A stretch of DNA of 26,509 nt, from positions 1 to 26,509 of the IMG/VR virus record IMGVR_UViG_3300021962_010737; one strand, given 5' to 3'. Shown one piece after another: positions 2,052-24,962 of this stretch. The notes under the pieces were generated by a model. The model was not told the DNA's origin, searched no databases, and saw only the letters and a program-made list of their open reading frames with translations. Position 1 is the first letter of the stretch; every line of letters starts with the position of its first letter. A program made the position numbers and the translations under genes. This DNA comes from a virus.

Positions 2052-4649
2052 ATGTTTACCAAAAAAAACTTTTATAGAAAAAGATTTTTTAATTGCAAAG
2101 TCGTGACTGACTTGTACAAAAAAGCTTCGTATGCATTAAGCGTATTTTTTTTGATGTGTACAACGGCTTTTGCCGATTGTTCGACAGTAGCTGGCGTGGT
2201 CACCTGTACTGGCTCTCCTGATGGAATTAATGGAGCTGGATCATGGGCGCTTGGAATTCCACCAGTTTCAAAGACATTTATTAATAACGGAACGTTAAAT
2301 CCAGACGCAAGTGTGACTGGCATTATGTTTTTTGGTGATGGTTGGAACATCACAAATAACGGGATATTGTCTAAGAATAGCGATGATGGAACTATTCTTA
2401 TAAGGATGGCTAGCAATGCTACCGTCCAATCAACGCTCACAAATTCTGCCAATGCTTCGATAATTTCTTCGAGCGGTATAGGCGCAATGGTTTTGGGATA
2501 TGGCGGAAGCTACACAAATAATTTGCGAATTGTTAACAATGGTTTGATCTCTCAGCCAACAGCATCAAATACAGCTACGTACCCTGGCGCCATTTATATC
2601 GGCGATGCAAGCAGAGCTATTTCAATTTTTAATTCCGAAACAGGGTCAATCATTGGCGGAAATGGCTCATCAAATTTTCATGCGGCAATCTCGAACTCAG
2701 GACAAATACAAACACTCAGGAACGCAGGTTTAATTCAAGGAAATGGCCCTTCAGCGGCAGGTATTATTGATATTAATGGTTCGATCGGCGAATTTTTAAA
2801 TCTAGGCACAATCTCTGCGAATGGTGGGATTTCGCCAGTTGCAGTTAATCTGTTAAGTACCAACATAACAAGATTTGAGAACCTCTCTAATGGGGTTATC
2901 AGATCAACAGGGTCCTCTTCATCTGAGGCACTACGGTTACGTGGTGCCCAAATTAAGACTTTACAAAATTTTGGCGAGATTTCTGCCGGTGGAAATGTCA
3001 TCACTCTTGATTCCACAGCTTCGATAAGTACATTTACCAACACTGGTTCAATACAAACTACTGGTACAAATCGATACGGCATTCAGAATTCGGGCGCAAT
3101 TACAACTCTAAACAATAGCCAAGTCTATTTAACCTACCAGGGCAACTTGCCGTCTAATTACAATATCAAGGTCAATAGCCCTAACAGTTACGGTCAACTA
3201 ATAACAACTTCGCCAGCTGGCGCTACAAATTTTGGTATCTATCAAACATCAAAGCTCTCTCCGAATACCGTTTATACCAACGTAATTACTGGCGTGACCG
3301 CTGCAAATTTCACAAACGGATCTGTTCCAGTAGGACGATTTGGTACTGGCGCCATGGTGACTACGATTCAATGGTACTTGACCAACAGAGGAACGAATTG
3401 GGATTTAGTTACTCAACCTTCACCCACTCAAAGTGTCGATCCAGTTGTACCCGGAGGCGGTACTCCTGTAGCGCAACCCGTTCAAAGCACAAATCCGGTT
3501 GTACAAAAAAGTAACTCTGCTACATCTGTTGCTAATGCAATAGCTAATTCGGCCGTTATTGCATCAAATGGTGGCGCTGATCCGACACTAAAAACTGGAA
3601 CGTCCATTTCAACTGCTGTGCAAACTTTGACAGCTTTTCAAGTTGATGAGCTCACCAATGTACACGCTGAAGGTTACTCCTCAAATATGACGATTGGCCT
3701 AGAGCAAATGAAAACGGTCGCTAATACAGTCATGGATCGAATTCACAAGCCCATTTCAAATAGCAGTACTACCTCTACATCGTATGCCCTAGATGCGGGT
3801 CGCTACCTGTGGGCCGACGTTGCTGGATTTAATGGAACAGTTAAGAGCTATAACGGACTGGCAGGTTTCGGATATCACTCTTATTACGGCGTGGTGGGTT
3901 TGGATTTATTCAGAAATGAATCTGGTGGTCTTGGCTTATACGCGGGTGCGGGCAATTCTTCTATGAATCAAAGTGCACAGGTATCTCAGACGTTTAACAA
4001 TAATGTCGGCTATGTCGGTCTGTACGGCGGAATGTATCTTGGTGATACCGTTAAGCTATCCGGTGCGCTGGGTTATTCCTTTGGTAACACCAGTGCAGCA
4101 CGTAACAACCCAAATATCGGGGACTTTACGGGAGGCAATGCGACCGATAAATATTCAAGCAATGGTGCATATGTCGCGCTCAAACTGTCGCATAGCATGC
4201 TTGTTGGTGACAGTTTCACACTCACCCCATTTATCGGTGGCTCATATTCGCAACTGAACACGGGTGCTGTGAATGAAACGGGTGGGGGCGACTTCAACTA
4301 TTCTATTAATGCAGCCAAGTCATACCAGGCCATCACATTTGCGGGCGCTGAGTTTATTCAGCCCCTAAAGCAAATAGGGGCTGGATCATTATCGTTAGTT
4401 GGATTTTATCGGTTCTCGTATAACTGGTCGGCAAATACTGACTCAGCACATACGGTGACAGCGACCAGTTCTGCGTTCGGCACATTTAATCAAACGGGTG
4501 CCAATATGGGTCCCGTGAGCAATATATTTGGACTGGGCTTGCAAGGTCAATTAGCTAAGGATCTATCGTTCCGTCTAGGCGCGATAGCTTCAATTAATAC
4601 AAACGGTACACAATACGGTGGTGGTGGTGAGCTGCGGTTGCGATTCTAA
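2052..4649 (+). CDS. Type Va autotransporter (beta-helix passenger plus outer-membrane beta-barrel)
   Basis: A complete 865-residue protein. The N-terminus is a long basic signal region followed by a hydrophobic core and a likely cleavage after TAFA (residue ~41). Residues ~45-450 are short Asn/Gly/Ile/Thr-rich repeats of beta-helix type. Residues ~455-485 form a Pro/Val/Thr linker. Residues ~580-865 show alternating aromatic/glycine strands of an autotransporter barrel, ending in GGELRLRF with the expected terminal phenylalanine. By family knowledge the barrel inserts in the outer membrane through Bam and exports the passenger. No catalytic motif (GDSL or serine protease) is seen in the passenger, so adhesion or aggregation is more likely than enzymatic activity. 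The gene stands alone, downstream of another surface-protein gene. Confidence 0.88.
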   Translation: MFTKKNFYRKRFFNCKVVTDLYKKASYALSVFFLMCTTAFADCSTVAGVVTCTGSPDGINGAGSWALGIPPVSKTFINNGTLNPDASVTGIMFFGDGWNITNNGILSKNSDDGTILIRMASNATVQSTLTNSANASIISSSGIGAMVLGYGGSYTNNLRIVNNGLISQPTASNTATYPGAIYIGDASRAISIFNSETGSIIGGNGSSNFHAAISNSGQIQTLRNAGLIQGNGPSAAGIIDINGSIGEFLNLGTISANGGISPVAVNLLSTNITRFENLSNGVIRSTGSSSSEALRLRGAQIKTLQNFGEISAGGNVITLDSTASISTFTNTGSIQTTGTNRYGIQNSGAITTLNNSQVYLTYQGNLPSNYNIKVNSPNSYGQLITTSPAGATNFGIYQTSKLSPNTVYTNVITGVTAANFTNGSVPVGRFGTGAMVTTIQWYLTNRGTNWDLVTQPSPTQSVDPVVPGGGTPVAQPVQSTNPVVQKSNSATSVANAIANSAVIASNGGADPTLKTGTSISTAVQTLTAFQVDELTNVHAEGYSSNMTIGLEQMKTVANTVMDRIHKPISNSSTTSTSYALDAGRYLWADVAGFNGTVKSYNGLAGFGYHSYYGVVGLDLFRNESGGLGLYAGAGNSSMNQSAQVSQTFNNNVGYVGLYGGMYLGDTVKLSGALGYSFGNTSAARNNPNIGDFTGGNATDKYSSNGAYVALKLSHSMLVGDSFTLTPFIGGSYSQLNTGAVNETGGGDFNYSINAAKSYQAITFAGAEFIQPLKQIGAGSLSLVGFYRFSYNWSANTDSAHTVTATSSAFGTFNQTGANMGPVSNIFGLGLQGQLAKDLSFRLGAIASINTNGTQYGGGGELRLRF

Positions 4650-5045: not shown

Positions 5046-5333
5046 TTAGCCATGACTCAAATGGCTTGTCGCTCTTTTCAATATTTTGTTTGACCTGAAG
5101 TAATTGCAGTCGAGACGGCTGCAGCTGATGGTGACTATTTTGTTGTCTTGTGCGGTCATCTTGACGATCACCAGTTGGCTGGAGTTGACCACCACTTAGG
5201 TGGGTAAGAGCTTGGCACTGGCCTGCACGCGGTTGACGCAGGTCTCGAAGCCCACCGTGGCCTCTTGCGTGTTTGCGAATGCGTTGGTGCTGATGGCCAA
5301 GGCTGCGATGCTGATAATGGTCTTGAAATTCAT
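5046..5333 (-). pseudogene. Small secreted cysteine-containing protein, interrupted by an in-frame stop
   Basis: Starting at the ATG at 5333, behind a clear AGGA ribosome binding site, the frame encodes a textbook signal peptide (MNFKTIISIAALAISTNAFA) and then NTQEATVGFETCVNRVQA. It stops at a TAA (5196-5198) after only 45 residues. Read through that codon, the same frame continues for 49 coherent codons, including VVVNSSQLVIVKM and VTISCSRLD, to a TAA at 5046-5048. The second half has the hydrophobic-strand and TxxCSRxD pattern I associate with small periplasmic proteins of Burkholderiales, so I read this as one ~94-residue gene broken by a point mutation. An alternative is a genuine 45-residue peptide. 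The role is unknown. Upstream in-frame codons to 5516 are probably not translated with it. Confidence 0.55.
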
Positions 5334-5896: not shown

Positions 5897-6117
5897 GGTT
5901 GCTCAGCAACTTATCGCATTCATTCAGGCTGCTGGAAAGGCACTTCCCAAGGATAAAGCGGTACGAACATCTGGGGCAATAAAACTGCTTGATGATCTTA
6001 CGATGAGATTCAACTTTTTGGGTACTGGCTGAAACGCGCAGCAAAGTGTTCCAAACCACGTAACGTTAGCCTACGCTGACTTCTACATTCAATCCTGTCC
6101 TACCCAAAGGAATATCC
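5897..6117 (+). other. Gap with an orphan open stretch (5880-6032), possible gene remnant
   Basis: The frame starting at 5880 is open for about 50 codons to a TGA at 6030-6032 and reads like real protein (VAQQLIAFIQAAGKALPKDK, then GAIKLLDDLTMRFNFLGTG). It has no start codon or ribosome binding site and overlaps the end of the preceding gene in another frame. I read it as a possible tail of a lost gene. Bases 6033-6117 are the leader of the aquaporin remnant, with AAAGGA before its ATG. Confidence 0.3.
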
Positions 6118-6402
6118 ATGAATAAGTTATTTGCTGAAGCTATAGGAACTTTCTGGCTGGTATTGGGAGGCTGCGGCAGTGCGGTGATAGCAACAGCGTT
6201 TCCACAAGTAGGCATTGGCCTGATGGGGGTCTCGCTGGCCTTTGGTCTGACGGCGCTGGCTATGGCTAATGTGATTGGGCACATCTCGGGTTGCCACCTG
6301 AACCCGGCAGTCTCCATCGGCCTGTGGGTCGGGGGCCGATTTGCTGGCCGTGATCTACCCACCTAAATTACGGCACAAGTGCTGACCGCATAGCTCTACT
6401 TC
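6118..6402 (+). pseudogene. aqpZ: Aquaporin Z remnant, truncated after the first NPA half
   Basis: The 82 residues to the first stop match the N-terminal half of AqpZ-type water channels: [17 protein letters not shown], the helix around [19 protein letters not shown], and the first NPA loop [22 protein letters not shown]. Intact AqpZ has about 230 residues and a second NPA motif, absent here. After the TAA at 6364-6366 the same frame still resembles the family (ITAQVLTA, a TAG, then LYF) to 6402, so the gene has decayed by stops and a 3' deletion. A good Shine-Dalgarno is kept, but a half-channel would not form a pore. The terminator at 6454 may once have served this gene. Confidence 0.85.
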
Positions 6403-6538: not shown

Positions 6539-7987
6539 ATGGAAGTGGCCAACAAAATCTTTTTTATCGTTTTTGCTCTCATTACCTTCGCTATTTTACT
6601 GAGCGCAATTCCACAATTTCAGGCTCCAAGGTCGGACTGGCCCAGTACCTATTGGCCATTGAGTACCTGTTTTTACACCCTTAGTTGCTTAAGCTTTGGG
6701 ATTGCCTTATGGGTTAATAAGTTTCTCTTAACGATAGGCAATACCTCGCTATTAATGTCGTCTCTGGCCCTTGTGTTTTTATACCGCTCTTTGGGCGAAA
6801 AGCCGTTTAATAAAACACAAACCCTTCTGCTTTGGTTGATCCCTCTAGGCGTTGCCATTCTGTATGAGCCATTAAGAGTGGCCCCAGATACATTTCTTCA
6901 GCGAGTCGCCTTAATAACAATTACTCAAGAAATCTTAATTTCCTGGCAATTATGGGAATTAATAAAATTGTATAAAAAAGATCGCCCAAGCATTGTGGGT
7001 TGGATTATCTTTTTAACTACATTGACGCTGGCGGGTAATGTCTTTAGGACTTATCGGATTCTGACAGGCGATGGCCCAACCAATATCTTCATCTATACCG
7101 AAGATGCCTTTGCCTTAGGGCTCAGATGGGTTACCTATGCATCTAACATCATGACCTTTGTCGCGTTGGGAATGTTTTATTTTCAAAGACGGCTCTTAAA
7201 AGAAAACGAAATCAGTAACGCCCTGGAAAGATCCAAGCAGGAGAATGAAAAAATTACTGAGCTCTTAAAAGAAAAAGAGCGGCTTATCTATAGCTTGATG
7301 AAAGCAAATAAGACTGCGGCCACTGGCGCATTATCAGCATCGATTGCTCATGAGCTTAATCAACCTCTAGGCGCATCTCATCTCAATATCCAATTTCTCA
7401 AAATGAAATTAGAAAAGGGTGTTATCAATCCTGAGTTGGGTAAAGAAATTTTAGATTCTCTGGAGCAGGACAATAAGAGGGCGGCAACAATTGTCAGATC
7501 TCTCAGGTCAATATTTACTGAGAGTGAGTCTAATGCTCAAGAAGTTCAATTGAGTGATTTGATAGCAAAAGTTCTAGATATTACTAAACCTGATCTTAAG
7601 AACAAGAGCATCCAAATTCAATTACGGGTCGATGATGATTTAGTGATCAGAGTTAACCCCTCTGAAATCGAACAAGTCATATTAAATTTGCTCAATAACG
7701 CAATTCAAGCCTTGGCGAATTCAGCAACACTCCAGCGCCGCATTGCTATAGAGGCCAGAAAGGCAGATAAGTTTGCTCAACTAAGTATTTCTGATAATGG
7801 TTCTGGGGTTCCTCCTGAATTTAAACCCTACCTTTTTGAGCTATTGAGTACAACTAAGCAAACGGGGATGGGCCTGGGCCTATGGCTTTGCAAGCATGTT
7901 GTCACTAGATATGGCGGCTCCATCCATCACGAAGATCCCGAAGGGGGTGGTGCTAAGTTTGTGATGGAGCTACCTTCAGCAGTCTAG
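6539..7987 (+). CDS. Membrane sensor histidine kinase, orphan in this window
   Basis: A complete 482-residue sensor kinase. Residues ~5-216 hold about seven hydrophobic segments with short loops, so sensing is probably within or near the membrane. Residues ~220-255 are a charged coiled coil. The H-box is SASIAHELNQPLGA with phospho-acceptor His271; the N-box is IEQVILNLLNNAIQAL (Asn386/387); the ATP-binding glycines follow in SDNGSGVPP and TGMGLGLWLCKHV. By family knowledge it autophosphorylates and passes phosphate to a response regulator. No regulator gene is adjacent: the upstream gene is a decayed aquaporin and a prophage lies immediately downstream, so a partner may sit beyond the prophage. 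The signal is unknown. The start is the only one that keeps the first membrane segment. Confidence 0.9.
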   Translation: MEVANKIFFIVFALITFAILLSAIPQFQAPRSDWPSTYWPLSTCFYTLSCLSFGIALWVNKFLLTIGNTSLLMSSLALVFLYRSLGEKPFNKTQTLLLWLIPLGVAILYEPLRVAPDTFLQRVALITITQEILISWQLWELIKLYKKDRPSIVGWIIFLTTLTLAGNVFRTYRILTGDGPTNIFIYTEDAFALGLRWVTYASNIMTFVALGMFYFQRRLLKENEISNALERSKQENEKITELLKEKERLIYSLMKANKTAATGALSASIAHELNQPLGASHLNIQFLKMKLEKGVINPELGKEILDSLEQDNKRAATIVRSLRSIFTESESNAQEVQLSDLIAKVLDITKPDLKNKSIQIQLRVDDDLVIRVNPSEIEQVILNLLNNAIQALANSATLQRRIAIEARKADKFAQLSISDNGSGVPPEFKPYLFELLSTTKQTGMGLGLWLCKHVVTRYGGSIHHEDPEGGGAKFVMELPSAV

Positions 7988-8378: not shown

Positions 8379-8628
8379 GGTTATACCTTTCGATGATTTT
8401 GGGTTGAGCCTCGCGTAGTGTTGATAGCTGCGCTTCGAGGTTTTGGGATAAACCTTGCAATCGGATTGACTCTGATTGAAAGGATTCGAGATCGGCAAGG
8501 TGACGAATGTTTTCTGCGGCTTGGTAGCCCACGTGGAATTGATACTTTCCATAGCTCCACAGTCCTACCATGCCACTAGCCATGGCCATGGCGATAAGTA
8601 CATATCGGTGAGCGAGTAGATCAATCAT
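8251..8628 (-). CDS. Rz-like i-spanin
   Basis: Start chosen at ATG 8628 because AAGGAGG lies five bases upstream and the codon overlaps the stop of the preceding holin gene; 125 residues. An N-terminal membrane anchor (YVLIAMAMASGMVGLWSYG) is followed by a periplasmic coiled coil (~residues 35-95) and a C-terminal CIIDADRLRELNAAI segment typical of Rz proteins. It acts with the overlapping lipoprotein to span the periplasm and disrupt the outer membrane after peptidoglycan is degraded. Position at the end of the lysis cassette supports the call. Confidence 0.85.
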   Translation of the reverse strand: MIDLLAHRYVLIAMAMASGMVGLWSYGKYQFHVGYQAAENIRHLADLESFQSESIRLQGLSQNLEAQLSTLREAQPKIIERYNRVVIEKPLPGDCIIDADRLRELNAAITTANSSKHNQPMPSAR

Positions 8629-19839: not shown

Positions 19840-20301
19840 TTAAGCAAAGAGATCCTCAACGATGCCCGCACCGTTGGCGCTCGTCGTTAACTCAAGCGAG
19901 CATGAGGCAGTCGTGATGTTGTCCACGGATCCGATATTGACTTTCCAGGACATGACTTTGGCCTGAAAGAAATACTTGTCGCCATTCTGTGTTTCAACAC
20001 GAAACGTGTAGTTGTTGTCCGAAAGGCTTGCCGCTTTCATAAGGATTTGACCGGCATCATCGGTATCCAGGCCAATTGAGAGCGTAATAGAGCCCTCGTT
20101 AAATGAGCCTTTGAACTTTTGTGTTCCACGTGATCCCACTGGCTGGTGGGTCACAAGCGAATACTCGCGACCAAATTCACCCAGATCGGTGATCTCGCCG
20201 ACCGGGGTGTAGGTGAGGGCCCCATATCCTGTTACATCAAAGGAGGCAGGGGTGGCCGCGGATACTTTAAAAATGGTTCCCGCACTGGTACGAACTGTCA
20301 T
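19840..20301 (-). CDS. Major tail tube protein
   Basis: 153 residues from ATG 20301, which has GAGGA at a good distance; the open frame upstream to 20364 runs through two terminator-like hairpins and is rejected. The sequence is beta-rich with motifs usual for siphovirus tube proteins: GTIFKVSAATPASFDVTGY, EITDLGEFGREYSLVTHQPV and SRGTQKFKGSFNEGSITL, then NIGSVDNITTASCSLELT. It polymerises around the tape measure to form the tail shaft and should be one of the most abundant virion proteins. No sheath gene precedes it, supporting a non-contractile tail. The U8 hairpin directly upstream is discussed as a finding. Confidence 0.88.
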   Translation of the reverse strand: MTVRTSAGTIFKVSAATPASFDVTGYGALTYTPVGEITDLGEFGREYSLVTHQPVGSRGTQKFKGSFNEGSITLSIGLDTDDAGQILMKAASLSDNNYTFRVETQNGDKYFFQAKVMSWKVNIGSVDNITTASCSLELTTSANGAGIVEDLFA

Positions 20302-20315
20302 GATGATTTCCTCAT

Positions 20316-20342
20316 AAAAAAAATACCCACAAATTTGTGGGT
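20316..20342 (-). terminator. Terminator-like palindrome directly upstream of the tail tube gene
   Basis: The perfect 18-bp palindrome ACCCACAAATTTGTGGGT (20325-20342) is followed on the - strand by A and eight T, ending 14 bases before the tail tube start codon. By shape it is an intrinsic terminator; by position it could be a 5' leader hairpin of the tail tube mRNA. Confidence 0.7.
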
Positions 20343-20349
20343 TAGAAAT

Positions 20350-20382
20350 AAAAATGCCCGCCACCAGTCGCCTGGGCGGGCA
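20350..20382 (-). terminator. Rho-independent terminator after the head-tail joining module
   Basis: On the - strand TGCCCGCC pairs with GGCGGGCA, with an inner CAG/CTG pair closed by GCGA and a small GT bulge, followed by TTTTTA. It starts 24 bases past the stop of the DUF3168-like gene and is in tandem with the hairpin at 20316-20342. Confidence 0.75.
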
Positions 20383-20405
20383 CGACTCACCTGCGCGCAG
20401 CAGTA

Positions 20406-20846
20406 TTAGTCTGTGGAAAATTCCACGAAATTTAATAAGTAGTCGTAGGGTTGAGTCCAGACGCCTGCATCGGTGTCTTTATCGACCGGCCCCATCAAGT
20501 CGAGTCGACAGGAGATGACCTTTTGATCCACCACAATGGTTTGGTGCTTAAAGTCAAGCGCGGCACGCACTGCTTCATGGATGGCTTTGACTTCGCCAAT
20601 GGTTGTGGCCAATGGGTTGATCTGTATTCTGGCAAGTGCTCGCTGCTCGCCCACTTGGTAATTCAAATTAGGGGTGGGCTTGCTGTCGATAACGGTGTAA
20701 ACAAGCGCCGGCATCGAGGTGTTGGGTGGCAGTTGCGCAAGCGCCCTGCGGGTACCCACCAGCGCAACAATGGCGGGGGTGTTGAGCATGGTGGCAATAA
20801 TTAACTCTGCACTGATGGAGCGGGTACTTCTGGCTGGGGTACTCAT
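20406..20846 (-). CDS. Tail completion/terminator protein, DUF3168-like
   Basis: 146 residues. Features fit the DUF3168/gp17-like tail terminator fold: an N-terminal helix (SISAELIIATMLNTPAIVAL), then PPNTSMPALVYTVIDSKPTP and a central strand QVGEQRALARIQINPLATT, a helix (EVKAIHEAVRAALDF) and a C-terminal strand set ending VWTQPYDYLLNFVEF. By family knowledge it caps the tail tube and mates with the head connector. The ATG overlaps the upstream stop by four bases (ATGA). Two terminator-like hairpins follow its stop, so it is the last gene before a probable transcription control point. Confidence 0.85.
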   Translation of the reverse strand: MSTPARSTRSISAELIIATMLNTPAIVALVGTRRALAQLPPNTSMPALVYTVIDSKPTPNLNYQVGEQRALARIQINPLATTIGEVKAIHEAVRAALDFKHQTIVVDQKVISCRLDLMGPVDKDTDAGVWTQPYDYLLNFVEFSTD

Positions 20847-21385
20847 GGATTTAACTTATTAATTTCTTTCGGTAATCGAGTTCGGATGTAATCGGCAAAG
20901 GCAAGAATGGCTCGGTCGCTACTTGAATCAAAGGCGCTTCGCATAAACGATTGTGGTTTGATGCCAGGGTGAACAATCACATCTCGCATGACGCCCGCAA
21001 AAAATAGACTTTTTTTGTTCTTAGGCCTGATCTCGTAGGGTTGTTTCTTAGACTTTGAACCTGTGCCCGTGTAATAACTACCCGTTCCAAACTCAATGAG
21101 GTGCGCGTACCAAGCCTCTTTGTTGCCTGCGATCAGATTGGCTCTGACCCATCCGTATTTCTTTTCACTCTTGCGAACAAAGCGGATTCGCACGCTCTTG
21201 AGCAACGCACCGGTGCGGATATTATCATTTGCAACAAGCGTTTTTTTAACCGTTGAGGCTATAACCGTTTGACCTGCGCGCATGGCTCCACGCACGACAT
21301 TGCCCTCAATTTTTGCGGGCAGGGTCTTCAGTAGTTCATCCAATTCCTTAAGACCAAGCACATTAACTGTTGATTCTGTTGCCAT
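20843..21385 (-). CDS. HK97 gp10-like neck/tail completion protein
   Basis: 180 residues with the pattern of the HK97-gp10-like family: ELDELLKTLPAKIEGNVVRG, the Ala-rich helix to VKKTLVANDNIRTGALLKSV, then YAHLIEFGTG, the family signature, and a C-terminal PQSFMRSAFDSSSDRAI segment. Such proteins act at the head-tail interface or as tail completion factors. GAGGAG lies upstream of the ATG at 21385. A Lys/Ser/Gly-rich insertion (GTGSKSKKQPYE) follows the signature. The next gene overlaps by four bases. Confidence 0.88.
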   Translation of the reverse strand: MATESTVNVLGLKELDELLKTLPAKIEGNVVRGAMRAGQTVIASTVKKTLVANDNIRTGALLKSVRIRFVRKSEKKYGWVRANLIAGNKEAWYAHLIEFGTGSYYTGTGSKSKKQPYEIRPKNKKSLFFAGVMRDVIVHPGIKPQSFMRSAFDSSSDRAILAFADYIRTRLPKEINKLNP

Positions 21386-21423
21386 TTACTCGCTCCTCAT
21401 TTACACGCACCTGTGAACTGGAC

Positions 21424-21774
21424 TCAATTTGCCTCTAAACCTTCCGAGGCCAAAAGCGTAATCAGCACGTTGCTCTCATCTTCATTAAGGGCTGCGTGAA
21501 TGTTAAAAATGCGCTCTTTATAGATCGCCCGAAAAGTTGCGACTTTCCGTGTATCGACAAGTGTCGGGTGATAGCGCACCGTAATCTGGTGCGTGACTTC
21601 ACTTGATAGTTGCTGCGCGCTTTGAAGTTCTCGACCCGTTAAGGGCTCAATCGATGCCCAGACGGTCATGAGCGTGTTCCATCCGGGAACAAGCGCACCG
21701 TAGGGATCGAGCTCTGTATTAGGACTTTTAATCGTGACGCGACAGTTGAGCTGCCCGGCACTTAAAATGCTCAT
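21424..21774 (-). CDS. Head-tail joining (head closure) protein
   Basis: 116 residues, the usual size of the SPP1 gp16-like head closure family. It opens SAGQLNCRVTIKSPNTELDP, then WNTLMTVWASIEPLTGRE, and TVRYHPTLVDTRKVATF with a FNIHAALNEDES segment, all typical of this family (R-I-x-I start, W-A-x-I-x-P-L-x-G-x-E, R-Y, I-x-x-x-x-N). It seals the connector after packaging and provides the surface for tail docking. The ATG overlaps the stop of the gp8-like connector gene. Confidence 0.9.
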   Translation of the reverse strand: MSILSAGQLNCRVTIKSPNTELDPYGALVPGWNTLMTVWASIEPLTGRELQSAQQLSSEVTHQITVRYHPTLVDTRKVATFRAIYKERIFNIHAALNEDESNVLITLLASEGLEAN

Positions 21775-22394
21775 ATGAAAGGCACCTTATATGGATCGAG
21801 TAATCCATCGATAAAGGGCAGTGGATCAACGCGTCCGCGATTGATGACGGCGATCTCTTCGCGATGGGCATATAAGCTGCCGACTCTGATTTTGATCCAA
21901 CTCTTAATGCCTTCGGGAACATCTTGTGGTGATCCGTAGCCTGCGTCAAAGGTTACGTTCACTGCACCAATTTGCGGCAGGCTTACGGGCCAGATCTGAC
22001 CAAATACGGGAGTGACTCGCGCCGGTTCACACGCCGCATCCAGGACGTAATGGGCAGGAGACACGGTTTGCATAACCCCATTCATATCCAGATACTGAAT
22101 GGCAGTTATCGTCTGAACAGGGCACTTGAACAGCAGAATCGCGTGATTTGGTAATGAAAAATTACTTTCACTCGAGCAGGCCATGCCCTCTTGACCGGCA
22201 AAGCGATCGAGGACCATTTTCCAGCGGGCAGTGATGAACTGCCGGCCAGTGATGGTCTGAGCCGCTTGCCGGGCTGCAGAGATGAGCGCCAGAATCAGTG
22301 CATCATCTTCATCAAAATCCACCCGCAGATGTAGCTTTGCCTCGGCGAGCGTGACAGGCTCATCAATAGGTGGGGTGACAAGTTGCAAGGGCAT
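21771..22394 (-). CDS. Head-tail connector, phiE125 gp8 / HK97 gp6-like
   Basis: 207 residues. The N-terminus PVTLAEAKLHLRVDFDEDDALI and AARQAAQTITGRQFITARW is diagnostic for gp6/gp8-type connector proteins that form a ring under the portal. The middle part has CPVQTITAIQYLDMNGVMQT and the C-terminus AGYGSPQDVPEGIKSWIKIR, matching the longer phiE125 gp8-like subgroup. It lies between the unknown head gene and head closure, as expected. The Shine-Dalgarno is weak and the start was taken at the first ATG, just in front of the conserved region. Confidence 0.88.
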   Translation of the reverse strand: MPLQLVTPPIDEPVTLAEAKLHLRVDFDEDDALILALISAARQAAQTITGRQFITARWKMVLDRFAGQEGMACSSESNFSLPNHAILLFKCPVQTITAIQYLDMNGVMQTVSPAHYVLDAACEPARVTPVFGQIWPVSLPQIGAVNVTFDAGYGSPQDVPEGIKSWIKIRVGSLYAHREEIAVINRGRVDPLPFIDGLLDPYKVPFI

Positions 22395-22401
22395 GGGTTA
22401 T

Positions 22402-22848
22402 TTAGAGCACCTGAATTACATCGGCCGAATTAGCAGCATCCGCGGGTGCGTAAAGGGGATTGACGCCCAGAAGCTGAGCACTAATTTGGGATGCGGCTAC
22501 AGCTACAGTGACCGCCAGGCGTACAAATCCATAGTCGTTAGACAAGTCAAAGTCGGAAGGGTGAAAGTTCACCAATACCTGCTTGTTTTCTCCGGTTGCC
22601 TTGACGATTTGAGTGATGGATTTACCTACAACGTCTTTGGCACCTGTGCCGGATGCGTCTTTGGCTTGCTGTAACTTCGCGTCAACGGTAGCGTTGGTGC
22701 CAAGTGTGCCCGTTTGCACGATCGCTAAAAGATCGTGAAACGCAGCCATAGAGATCCACTCCGTGGTTGCCGTTCCTGCCGCTTGCGAGGCTGGGTCAAT
22801 GGTGGCGAGCACTGCGAGCAGTTCGCTGCCTTTTGCATTTGGATACAT
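22402..22848 (-). CDS. Conserved phage head-module protein of unknown function
   Basis: 148 residues, GGAG before the ATG. It reads as a compact protein with an N-terminal helix-rich part (SELLAVLATIDPASQ, WISMAAFHDLLAIVQTGTLG), a centre with VDAKLQQAKDASGTGAKDVV and a C-terminal part with strand-like segments (YGFVRLAVTVAVAASQISAQ). I recall similar sequences next to capsid genes in other proteobacterial phages but know no tested function. Its place between capsid and connector suggests a capsid-associated, decoration or minor structural role. No signal or membrane segment. Confidence 0.7.
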   Translation of the reverse strand: MYPNAKGSELLAVLATIDPASQAAGTATTEWISMAAFHDLLAIVQTGTLGTNATVDAKLQQAKDASGTGAKDVVGKSITQIVKATGENKQVLVNFHPSDFDLSNDYGFVRLAVTVAVAASQISAQLLGVNPLYAPADAANSADVIQVL

Positions 22849-22903
22849 TTATTAACTCCGAATTTAAATTGTGAGGATTTGCTTGAGTGCATTTGCGCGC
22901 AGA

Positions 22904-24220
22904 TTAGCGAGCACCAAGCTGGATAAAGGGCGAGAGCGTGGCGCTTCCCTTAGCTGGTGCCATCGGGGCCGCGATCTTTGACTGACCATCCATACGGAAC
23001 GTCGTACGGAATGCTGTCAGGTCCGCATCGAAGTACAGATGCATCGAGGTCGCAGTCTGTAAGCCACCCGCTTTGGTGATCGTCTGGTAGTAGGAGAGAT
23101 CGGCAAGCAGAACATCGCCCTGACCAGAGAAGGTATTAGCGTGTTGAGAGACAAATACTGGGCGACCGAGCAACGTGCCATAGGGCGAGACTTGGATGCT
23201 ACCGACATTCAAGCCCGTAGGCAGGTAGATCGGGTAGTTGCCAAGGGTGAGCGTAAAGAGCGCGGGCAACACATCGTTATTAACGATCCACACCGCCTTT
23301 GCAAAAGATGCGGGAGGCAGGCGCGAGATCATCTTGGCCAAGTTCTGGGCAAGAAGCGTCTGAGTGGCTTGACCCGACTCCTTGGCTACGGTGACCGTTG
23401 TTGCACTTCCCATGCAACCGACAGGCACGCCAGTTCCCGAGCCAAAGAGAATCGATTCGTTGGTTTTCCAGCGAATGGAGGTTGCGATCTTGTCTGGCAA
23501 GTAGGTTGAAAGCGCATTGGTGTCATCCAGCAACTCATCGGTGACCGGTACCAGGGCCATGAGTTTTTTCAGGCGCAGGGTTGAGAGCCCGAGAACTGGC
23601 TTAGTACTTACAGCCGGCGTTGCTTCACCTTGCCAGTAGGCACGAATACCGTTGCTGCCCCAAGGAGTAGTTTCATCCTTCGGGAAAGCCATGGTGTTGC
23701 CGGTAATCTCTACGTTATCGGTCAGCGGCAAAAGGGAGTCTTCACCAAGCGAGAGCTGGAAAATTTCCTGTGCAAACTGGGGAGGCACGAGAAATCCACC
23801 ATCTTGAGCGGAACCTTCGTTACCGAAGTTTGATGCGCTTGCAGCACCGCGGCCAGATCCAATTAAAAGGCGCTCATCAATCGAGCTGCTGGGCTTTTGT
23901 GCCTGGCAGACCGTTTTAAGAAACTCGCCCACACTCTTAAAGCCGTGTTTGGGATCCGATGCGAGATTATCAATCACGGTGATGACTGAGGAACTAGCCA
24001 GCTGAGAGGAGTGGTTCAGGTGTGCTTCTTCTGCGATGAGAGAGGCTTCACGATCGATGGCAGCAGAGCTTGCCTCGATTTTTTCCTTTAATACTTCAAA
24101 AGCACTGACTTCATCTGCATTCATGTCGCGATCTTCTGCGGCTGCGATATCAGTTAGTGTGCGGGCATCTTTAACGAGGGATGCTTTGCGAGCCTGAAGC
24201 TCTCGTAATTGCTTACTCAT
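22904..24220 (-). CDS. Major capsid protein, HK97 fold with N-terminal delta domain
   Basis: The start is set at ATG 24220 with CAGGAG upstream, giving 438 residues; open codons further up run through a hairpin and are rejected. Residues 1-~75 are a charged coiled coil (KQLRELQARKASLVKDARTL), the delta domain that serves as built-in scaffold and is normally removed by the phage protease. The conserved core begins near GNEGSAQDGGFLVPPQFAQE, with LRLKKLMALVPVTDELLDD, RWKTNESILFGSGTGVP, GTLLGRPVFVSQHA and a C-terminal FDADLTAFRTTFRMDG. It forms the icosahedral shell. The S49 protease is encoded upstream, separated by the antisense toxin-antitoxin pair. Confidence 0.93.
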   Translation of the reverse strand: MSKQLRELQARKASLVKDARTLTDIAAAEDRDMNADEVSAFEVLKEKIEASSAAIDREASLIAEEAHLNHSSQLASSSVITVIDNLASDPKHGFKSVGEFLKTVCQAQKPSSSIDERLLIGSGRGAASASNFGNEGSAQDGGFLVPPQFAQEIFQLSLGEDSLLPLTDNVEITGNTMAFPKDETTPWGSNGIRAYWQGEATPAVSTKPVLGLSTLRLKKLMALVPVTDELLDDTNALSTYLPDKIATSIRWKTNESILFGSGTGVPVGCMGSATTVTVAKESGQATQTLLAQNLAKMISRLPPASFAKAVWIVNNDVLPALFTLTLGNYPIYLPTGLNVGSIQVSPYGTLLGRPVFVSQHANTFSGQGDVLLADLSYYQTITKAGGLQTATSMHLYFDADLTAFRTTFRMDGQSKIAAPMAPAKGSATLSPFIQLGAR

Positions 24221-24238
24221 GGATATTTCTCCTGAAAT

Positions 24239-24275
24239 AAAAAAAACCGCCTTGGTCAACATGACTAAAGGCGGT
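24239..24275 (-). terminator. Terminator-like hairpin directly upstream of the capsid gene
   Basis: On the - strand ACCGCCTT pairs with AAGGCGGT, with an inner GTCA/TGAC pairing, followed by a run of T. The T-run ends 18 bases before the capsid start codon. It could terminate most transcripts coming from the protease or act as a leader hairpin of the capsid mRNA. Confidence 0.75.
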
Positions 24276-24381
24276 GATAGGGGTGCGATCAATGGATCGT
24301 GGTGGTGTGGCACAGACCTCTTAGGAGGTCGTTTTGTTACAAATCTTGGGCTAAAAATTCAGTATTGGACTGATTTAGTTG

Positions 24382-24402: not shown

Positions 24403-24418
24403 ACAAAAGGTGATCCCA

Positions 24419-24700
24419 ATGACCATAGAAACTACCTACAGCCAAGCGCGTGAGCAGCTCAAAGCGCTGATGGACAAAGCCACTGAAGATCGTGAAGTCA
24501 TCGTGGTGCGCCGACGTACAGGTGGTGATGTGGCAATGATCGCTGCTGACGAGCTCGAAAGCTTAGTTGAAACTGCGCATTTGTTACGTTCATCTAAAAA
24601 TGCCGAACGATTACTTACCGCGCTTACCCGTGCTCGTTCAGACTCAGTCAAACCCATCGCATTATCTGATTTACAAAATCGAGTAGGCATAGATGCGTAA
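24419..24700 (+). CDS. yefM: YefM-type antitoxin (Phd/YefM family)
   Basis: 93 residues from ATG 24419, preferred over the GTG at 24410 because AAAAGG then lies at the right distance. The N-terminal TTYSQAREQLKALMDKATED and VIVVRRRTGGDVAMIAADEL are the hallmark of the Phd/YefM DNA-binding fold. Residues ~45-93 (LESLVETAHLLRSSKNAERL onwards) form the toxin-wrapping helix region. It should neutralise YoeB and repress its own promoter through the TGTACA boxes upstream. It overlaps the toxin gene by eight bases and lies on the strand opposite to the surrounding phage operon. Confidence 0.93.
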   Translation: MTIETTYSQAREQLKALMDKATEDREVIVVRRRTGGDVAMIAADELESLVETAHLLRSSKNAERLLTALTRARSDSVKPIALSDLQNRVGIDA

Positions 24701-24962
24701 GGCTGAGCGTTTAGCCGTCTGTCACCCAGAATTTTTAGAAGACCTAGATTACTGGGTGCAGACTGATCGACGCACAGCCAAAAGGCTACTAGAGTTAATG
24801 CGCGCTATTTTGAAAGATCCATTTGATGGGATTGGTAAACCGGAGCCGCTGAAATACTTGGGAGCGGATGTCTGGTCGCGTCGAATTACGCAGGAACATC
24901 GATGTGTGTATCTTGTTAAAGCGGATCGCATCGATTTTTTGCAAGGACGCTACCACTATTAA
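24693..24962 (+). CDS. yoeB: YoeB-type mRNA interferase toxin
   Basis: 89 residues, the usual YoeB length. It keeps the motifs PEFLEDLDYWVQTDR, GIGKPEPLKYLGADVWSRRI and a C-terminal RYHY; Glu51, Arg64, His88 and Tyr89 match the expected active-site residues. YoeB binds the ribosomal A site and cleaves mRNA during translation. The gene is coupled to yefM. Its TAA directly abuts the stop codon of the phage protease on the other strand, with no base between, so the two transcription units converge without a terminator. It appears intact and should be active when YefM is depleted. Confidence 0.93.
   Translation: MRKAERLAVCHPEFLEDLDYWVQTDRRTAKRLLELMRAILKDPFDGIGKPEPLKYLGADVWSRRITQEHRCVYLVKADRIDFLQGRYHY

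Follow-up and report, generated by a model that had tools for sequence, protein, structure and literature searches.

HK97 and lambda (before gene E) resemble the locus described here in that a terminator-type hairpin within the late operon precedes a major head or tail gene by 11-20 nt. The HK97 record (GenBank AF069529) lists putative terminators at 3309-3335, 5192-5213, 6692-6719, 7443-7462 and 8398-8422, of which one precedes the major tail subunit gene by 14 nt and another the protease-capsid gene pair by 13 nt; unlike here, putative terminators also follow the capsid and tail-subunit genes and precede the gene for the tape measure. HK022 carries a hairpin followed by U7 that is located 17 nt before its tail-tube gene, D3 carries such a hairpin about 45 nt upstream of the gene for its major tail protein, and lambda gene E is preceded by GGCCGCCTGTGCGGCTTTTTTT, with the hairpin kept in all 80 of the 80 close lambda relatives fetched. 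In SPP1, too, terminator-like stem-loops bound the late genes, and one of these immediately follows the capsid gene (PMC6316719). No functional test of such late-operon hairpins was found in the literature searched. The nearest worked-out counterpart of a gate of this kind is the eut operon; the terminators internal to it, before eutP, eutG, eutS and eutA, open only once EutV has bound a dual-hairpin RNA (PMC3369931).

In the window (the whole 26,509-nt stretch of viral DNA that was analysed), the genes encoding the major capsid protein and the tail tube protein are each preceded by a hairpin with a tract of eight U (Table 1). An earlier note on this DNA had placed these two hairpins 18 and 14 bases before the respective start codons and had claimed that no other gene of the operon shows this layout, and both observations hold; the one other strong terminator-like site on the same strand (9660-9643, - strand) is located near the operon end and is separated by over 50 nt from a small ORF downstream. 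Both leaders were found to fold better than 200 of 200 dinucleotide shuffles (capsid leader, z -4.4; tube leader, z -3.0). A scan restricted to the window identified 19 terminator-like sites where 20.3 were expected; the window alone is therefore unconvincing, and it is the comparative test that shows the significance of the layout.

Table 1. Positions in the window of the two genes and of the elements found in their leaders
Feature	Position	Strand	Basis and remarks
Major capsid protein (Phage_capsid PF05065; phrog_10)	22904..24220	-	ATG at 24220
Whole capsid leader RNA	24221..24342	-	Covariance model R1, 82.2 bits, E 7.5e-17, the window itself being among the 34 sequences used in building R1
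P1 hairpin, GACCUC-CUAA-GAGGUC	24315..24330	-	Fold, alignment, covariation, loop enrichment
P2 hairpin, CGAUC-CAUU-GAUCG, tetraloop class as in P1	24286..24299	-	Fold, alignment, covariation, loop enrichment
P3, intrinsic-terminator-type hairpin + U8, 18 nt 5' of capsid ATG	24239..24275	-	Sequence, fold, conservation; stem 24275-24246, U8 24246-24239
Shine-Dalgarno AGGAG of capsid gene	24229..24233	-	Sequence
Tail tube / major tail protein (phrog_158)	19840..20301	-	ATG at 20301
Palindromic terminator-type hairpin + U8, 14 nt 5' of tube ATG	20316..20342	-	Sequence, scan, fold; perfect palindrome ACCCACAAATTTGTGGGT 20342-20325, U8 20323-20316
Upstream tube-leader hairpin, stem GUGCCCGCC/GGCGGGCAU, then UUUUUAUUU	20354..20383	-	Sequence, fold

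The relatives comprised 160 viral contigs related to the window in capsid or tube and 78 bacterial-genome loci with capsid identities from 87 down to 38%, the latter including Limnohabitans, Polynucleobacter, Accumulibacter, Collimonas, Ramlibacter, Sterolibacterium, Xanthomonas, Dyella, Paraburkholderia and others. For every structural gene recognisable by homology, the layout was scored strictly as a stem of -7 kcal/mol or lower with at least 4 consecutive T within 2 nt, inside the 80 nt before the start codon, and counts refer to distinct upstream sequences. Under this criterion, the layout was found in 109 of 120 capsid leaders (91%) and in 37 of 58 tube leaders (64%), as compared to 14 of 823 (1.7%) for all other structural genes; a looser criterion yielded 113/120 and 44/58, with shuffle rates of 0-10%. 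The Fisher p value for the contrast between gene classes (<1e-38) overstates independence, since the sequences are related; the spread of the layout over divergent capsids and two tube families is independent of these p values. When capsid leaders were divided by capsid identity, the strict layout was present in 59 of 61 at 80% or above, 33 of 34 at 70-80%, 9 of 10 at 60-70%, 8 of 12 at 45-60% and none of 3 below 45%, showing that it is kept down to about 50% capsid identity. Together with the covariation described below, the gene-class control rules out a chance origin.

Leaving aside the homologues of the window's tube protein, prophages with a different tail module carry strong hairpins 22-32 nt before ORFs of approximately 210-284 aa. 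The layout rule predicts that the ORF behind the hairpin encodes the tube, and all seven ORFs tested were indeed major tail proteins (phrog_584/158). A search with one of these seven tail proteins gathered the leaders of a second tube family (phrog_584), in which a terminator was found in 39 of 61 distinct leaders, mostly 22-31 nt before the ATG and usually after a second small hairpin.

The capsid element is a leader of about 120 nt composed of three hairpins, P1, P2 and then P3, which abuts the ribosome-binding site. In the relatives, P3 is followed by UUUUU, AUUUC and the Shine-Dalgarno sequence, while P1 and P2 are capped by a C-R-U-Y tetraloop with a C-G closing pair (CGUU in 24 of 34 aligned leaders for each hairpin; the loop forms are CGUU, CGUC, CGUA and CAUN). 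Hairpins of this tetraloop class were found in 102 of 127 distinct capsid leaders, as compared to 0.8% of the remaining 125-nt intervals of the same loci. The capsid leader is a further structured RNA motif, in which an uncommon tetraloop occurs twice. The earlier note had seen only part of the capsid element, with P1 and P2 missed. Pairing and covariation were assessed on an alignment of 34 capsid leaders (A2). In this alignment, pairing holds in 94% of cells, and for 12 of the 25 pairs both partners have changed; covariation scored 0.294, compared to 0.153 for shuffled alignments (0/500) and at most 0.10 when slid. Absence of stem conservation in relatives, which the earlier note had named among the outcomes that would refute it, was therefore not observed; the stems are conserved and show compensatory changes. 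Moreover, G·U cells far outnumber A·C cells in A2 (60 vs 9), indicating that the folded molecule is the RNA of the capsid strand; a DNA operator is disfavoured by this excess and by the compensatory changes in P1. The inner three pairs and the first loop base of P1 are invariant and the outer stem varies with compensation, suggesting that the loop end is what is recognised. P1 and P2 are absent from some lineages that retain P3 and are thus not essential to it. P2 and P3 are separate in A2 and do not overlap, which excludes classical switching, and inspection of A2 showed that an alternative pairing of P2 with P3 is not conserved. Pairing of P1 with the Shine-Dalgarno sequence (CUCC/GGAG) is possible, but was predicted in few leaders (the L179 group) and is not general.

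In most loci, the capsid leader was matched by the covariance model R1, which also gave weak matches to tube leaders of the same phages (L194, L207, L229, L238); further weak matches, away from phage structural genes (L248, L250), resemble unrelated terminators. At E<=1e-4, R1 matched 7 places in 5 of 300 Burkholderiales genomes, and each of them lies directly upstream of this capsid gene. The leaders matched no Rfam 15 family at the gathering threshold, nor at E<=1 or 5; Polynucleobacter-1 RNA (RF01718) was found in one host genome, at places other than the capsid leader. The literature searched, which excluded most subscription papers, contained no description of this capsid leader. Taking into consideration the precedents in HK97, HK022, D3, lambda and SPP1, the bare layout was already known; the new part is the conserved P1-P2-P3 leader, a three-hairpin regulatory RNA previously unlisted. 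The lambda, HK97 and HK022 hairpins lack the P1/P2 tetraloop hairpins (best R1 E values 0.016-0.7), and D3 yielded no R1 match.

Several known RNAs resemble P1 and P2 in part. The guanidine-II riboswitch (mini-ykkC) consists of two identical C-G-closed tetraloop hairpins before an expression platform; its loop, however, is ACGR rather than CRUY, and no Rfam match was found in any leader tested. In HK022, two adjacent stem-loops of the put RNA, acting in cis and with no need of a phage protein, let polymerase pass later terminators, but put is located at the start of early transcripts, unlike the late capsid leader. Identity with put was rejected, as R1 gave no significant match on the HK022 record, where the best weak match was the tail-tube leader. 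Like the capsid leader, the ANTAR leaders (EutV, NasR, AmiR) have two hairpins in tandem whose loops match and, between these and the gene, an intrinsic terminator that is internal to an operon (PMC3369931). Their loops, however, are hexaloops with A1 and G4 (PMC3369931) rather than C(CRUY)G, and their P2 re-pairs into the terminator, whereas P2 and P3 of the capsid leader are separate; on the loop consensus and the missing P2/terminator overlap, an ANTAR site was rejected. The autoregulatory leaders of T4 gene 43 and gene 32 likewise carry a structure upstream of a phage gene that binds that gene's own protein (PMC3014915), although the proteins and structures differ, with a single hairpin or a pseudoknot and no terminator.

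It seems paradoxical for an operon to carry stop signals directly in front of its most heavily expressed genes, and such hairpins recur before unrelated capsid and tail-tube genes, lambda gene E included. The terminator-like hairpin conserved before both genes across a large group of phages suggests that the virus locks these genes until the late programme starts. The reading that we favour, at a probability of roughly one half, is that an intrinsic-terminator gate is placed on the two most abundant virion proteins and is passed by antiterminated late transcription, with P1 and P2 as a recognition module. Ordinary RNA polymerase, arriving by leaky or read-through transcription in the lysogen, would be released at the hairpin and U-tract directly before the ribosome-binding site of either gene; an antiterminated late transcription complex would pass, and the transcribed hairpin would then form the 5' leader of a capsid or tube segment that is translated strongly. 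In the capsid leader RNA, P3 would be the terminating output part and P1 and P2, with their identical C(CRUY)G loops, would most likely be the recognition site for a factor that may adjust passage or translation, candidates being a phage antiterminator, a host factor or the capsid protein. If these hairpins are gates for antiterminated polymerase only, they would explain why the prophage's costliest genes are silent despite strong ribosome-binding sites. No antiterminator gene was found in the window, which stops short of the early region.

A G+C-rich stem with a directly adjoining U-tract, a feature of intrinsic terminators, is present in the window and in its capsid relatives. P3 passes directly into a sharply bounded U run (85-100% T at positions 2-6, 6% at position 8), with a minimum of 4 and a mean of 5.5 U among 8 positions, and P1 and P2 have no such tract. 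About 17 capsid leaders carry tandem terminators, in which the upstream copy has U5-U8 at least 40 nt from the start codon. A role in translation or in Shine-Dalgarno spacing does not explain a U-tract so remote from the ribosome-binding site, and the U5-U8 tracts of the tandem copies favour real terminators. These tandem copies also weigh against the idea that the hairpin is a translation enhancer which clears upstream structure and presents a U-rich strand (a protein S1 site) together with the Shine-Dalgarno sequence, as likened to highly translated phage leaders. The narrow distance between hairpin and ATG (16-31 nt) hints at a tie to initiation, and the capsid leaders have a second U-rich patch, AUUUC, 5' of the Shine-Dalgarno sequence; nevertheless, tube homologues in several phages from outside the group, whose tube is presumably equally abundant, lack the layout, which counts against the gate as well, and we regard an enhancer role as quite improbable.

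The main rival of the gate is that the hairpins are segment boundaries or stability elements, a reading we consider possible, if on the unlikely side. The hairpins would mark sites at which the long late message is cut or trimmed, protecting the capsid and tube segments or the upstream 3' ends and raising their share of the mRNA, and termination would be incidental. Several tube leaders (L092, L093, L117 and the group L110/L121/L127/L137/L151/L156) keep the hairpin with a U-tract degraded to CCUCUCUUU, and at these leaders a role other than termination is also likely. The putative terminators of HK97 stand both before and after its capsid and tail-subunit genes, and the genes marked are those of strongest need; if the hairpins act on stability, they would bear on the very unequal amounts of virion proteins made from a single late transcript. 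This reading leaves unexplained, however, why the U-tract is retained after P3 and why each tandem copy has U5-U8, and the window has no hairpin 3' of the capsid or tube gene. The earlier note had proposed either a terminator passed by an antiterminator or a leader hairpin that stabilises the mRNA or sets its 5' end; the conserved stems lend this pair of proposals partial support, and the two are inseparable by sequence alone.

With regard to what P1 and P2 might bind, it is conceivable, albeit improbable, that they form a feedback operator to which the capsid protein or an assembly intermediate binds, repressing translation of the capsid gene or promoting termination at P3 when subunits outrun assembly. 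The presence of P1/P2 before this capsid gene only, and before no other gene or elsewhere in the 300 genomes, would fit such feedback, as would the conserved P1 loop on an outer stem that varies with compensation; a precedent is T4 gp43, which binds a tetraloop hairpin in its own leader (PMC3014915). On the other hand, closely related capsids (74-76% identity) occur in lineages that lack P1/P2. Similarly doubtful is the proposal that P1-P2-P3 belongs to a new class of phage leader RNA and senses virion assembly, with the capsid protein or a partner binding the CRUY hairpins and thereby deciding on terminator passage or translation; if true, capsid supply in a dsDNA phage would here be subject to transcriptional feedback.

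A YefM-YoeB-type toxin-antitoxin pair, located on the opposite strand, sits in the window between the protease gene and the capsid leader. P3 is not the terminator of this pair, which is encoded on the other strand and is missing from relatives that keep the leader. The leader has stayed joined to the capsid gene despite this intervening pair, indicating that it is a capsid leader and not the 3' end of the protease gene. P1-P2-P3 followed by a U-tract has the typical outline of a small regulatory RNA, and the element could in principle be the 3' end of one that originates from the protease 3' region; given that the toxin-antitoxin pair parts the protease gene from the leader, and that only about 110-150 nt lie between the protease and capsid genes in other relatives, we consider this highly implausible.

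The opposite strand of the tube leader gave one sub-threshold Rfam match, to anti-hemB, which probably reflects mere hairpin likeness. A second hairpin of the window's tube leader, absent from the earlier note, is also terminator-shaped and lies directly 5' of the tube palindrome.

In the region before the tail tube gene, the terminator-type hairpin and its conserved GCAUCCCUGC apex are retained in nine related loci (L092, L093, L117, L110, L121, L127, L137, L151 and L156), while the U-tract has degenerated to mixed pyrimidines. Because the hairpin was kept as the U-tract decayed, it probably has a function other than termination in these nine leaders. The leaders of homologous tube genes in Vibrio phages (L415, L416, L417 and L418) lack the hairpin and, as judged by eye, seem to carry a promoter-like -10 element in its place. 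Opposite the tube leader, a sub-threshold match to the Rfam family anti-hemB (24 bits versus a gathering score of 49.5) probably reflects mere hairpin resemblance.

Further terminator-type leaders include weak matches to R1, the covariance model of capsid leaders. They also include a hairpin before lambda gene E, conserved in 80 of 80 close relatives, which represents a test case tractable in the laboratory.

Features identified in the window and in fetched loci
Feature	Location	Strand	Context
Weak R1 match	L176 13935-14031		terminator-containing leader immediately 5' of tail assembly chaperone gene
Weak R1 match	L182 10950-11072		as for L176
Anti-hemB sub-threshold match	window, 20302-20400 region; L001 1977-2043	- (L001)	opposite strand to tube leader; Rfam search
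Terminator-type hairpin with U7	L258 1102-1135 (lambda 6101-6134)		immediately 5' of lambda gene E
YefM/Phd-type antitoxin and YoeB-type toxin pair	window, 24410-24962	+	antisense, between head protease and capsid leader

The toxin-antitoxin insertion is absent from the close relative L003. Among capsid leaders, one subgroup (L179, L180, L181, L183 and L209) has a CUGGAG ribosome-binding site predicted to pair with an upstream CUCCAG across approximately 100 nt, a modeled pairing that could possibly sequester this site. Another six (L188, L189, L194, L200, L206 and L223) carry GUCCRUYGA, or a near-match, in the linker joining their tandem terminators; this motif resembles the loop of capsid-leader hairpin P1 but lies without a long stem.
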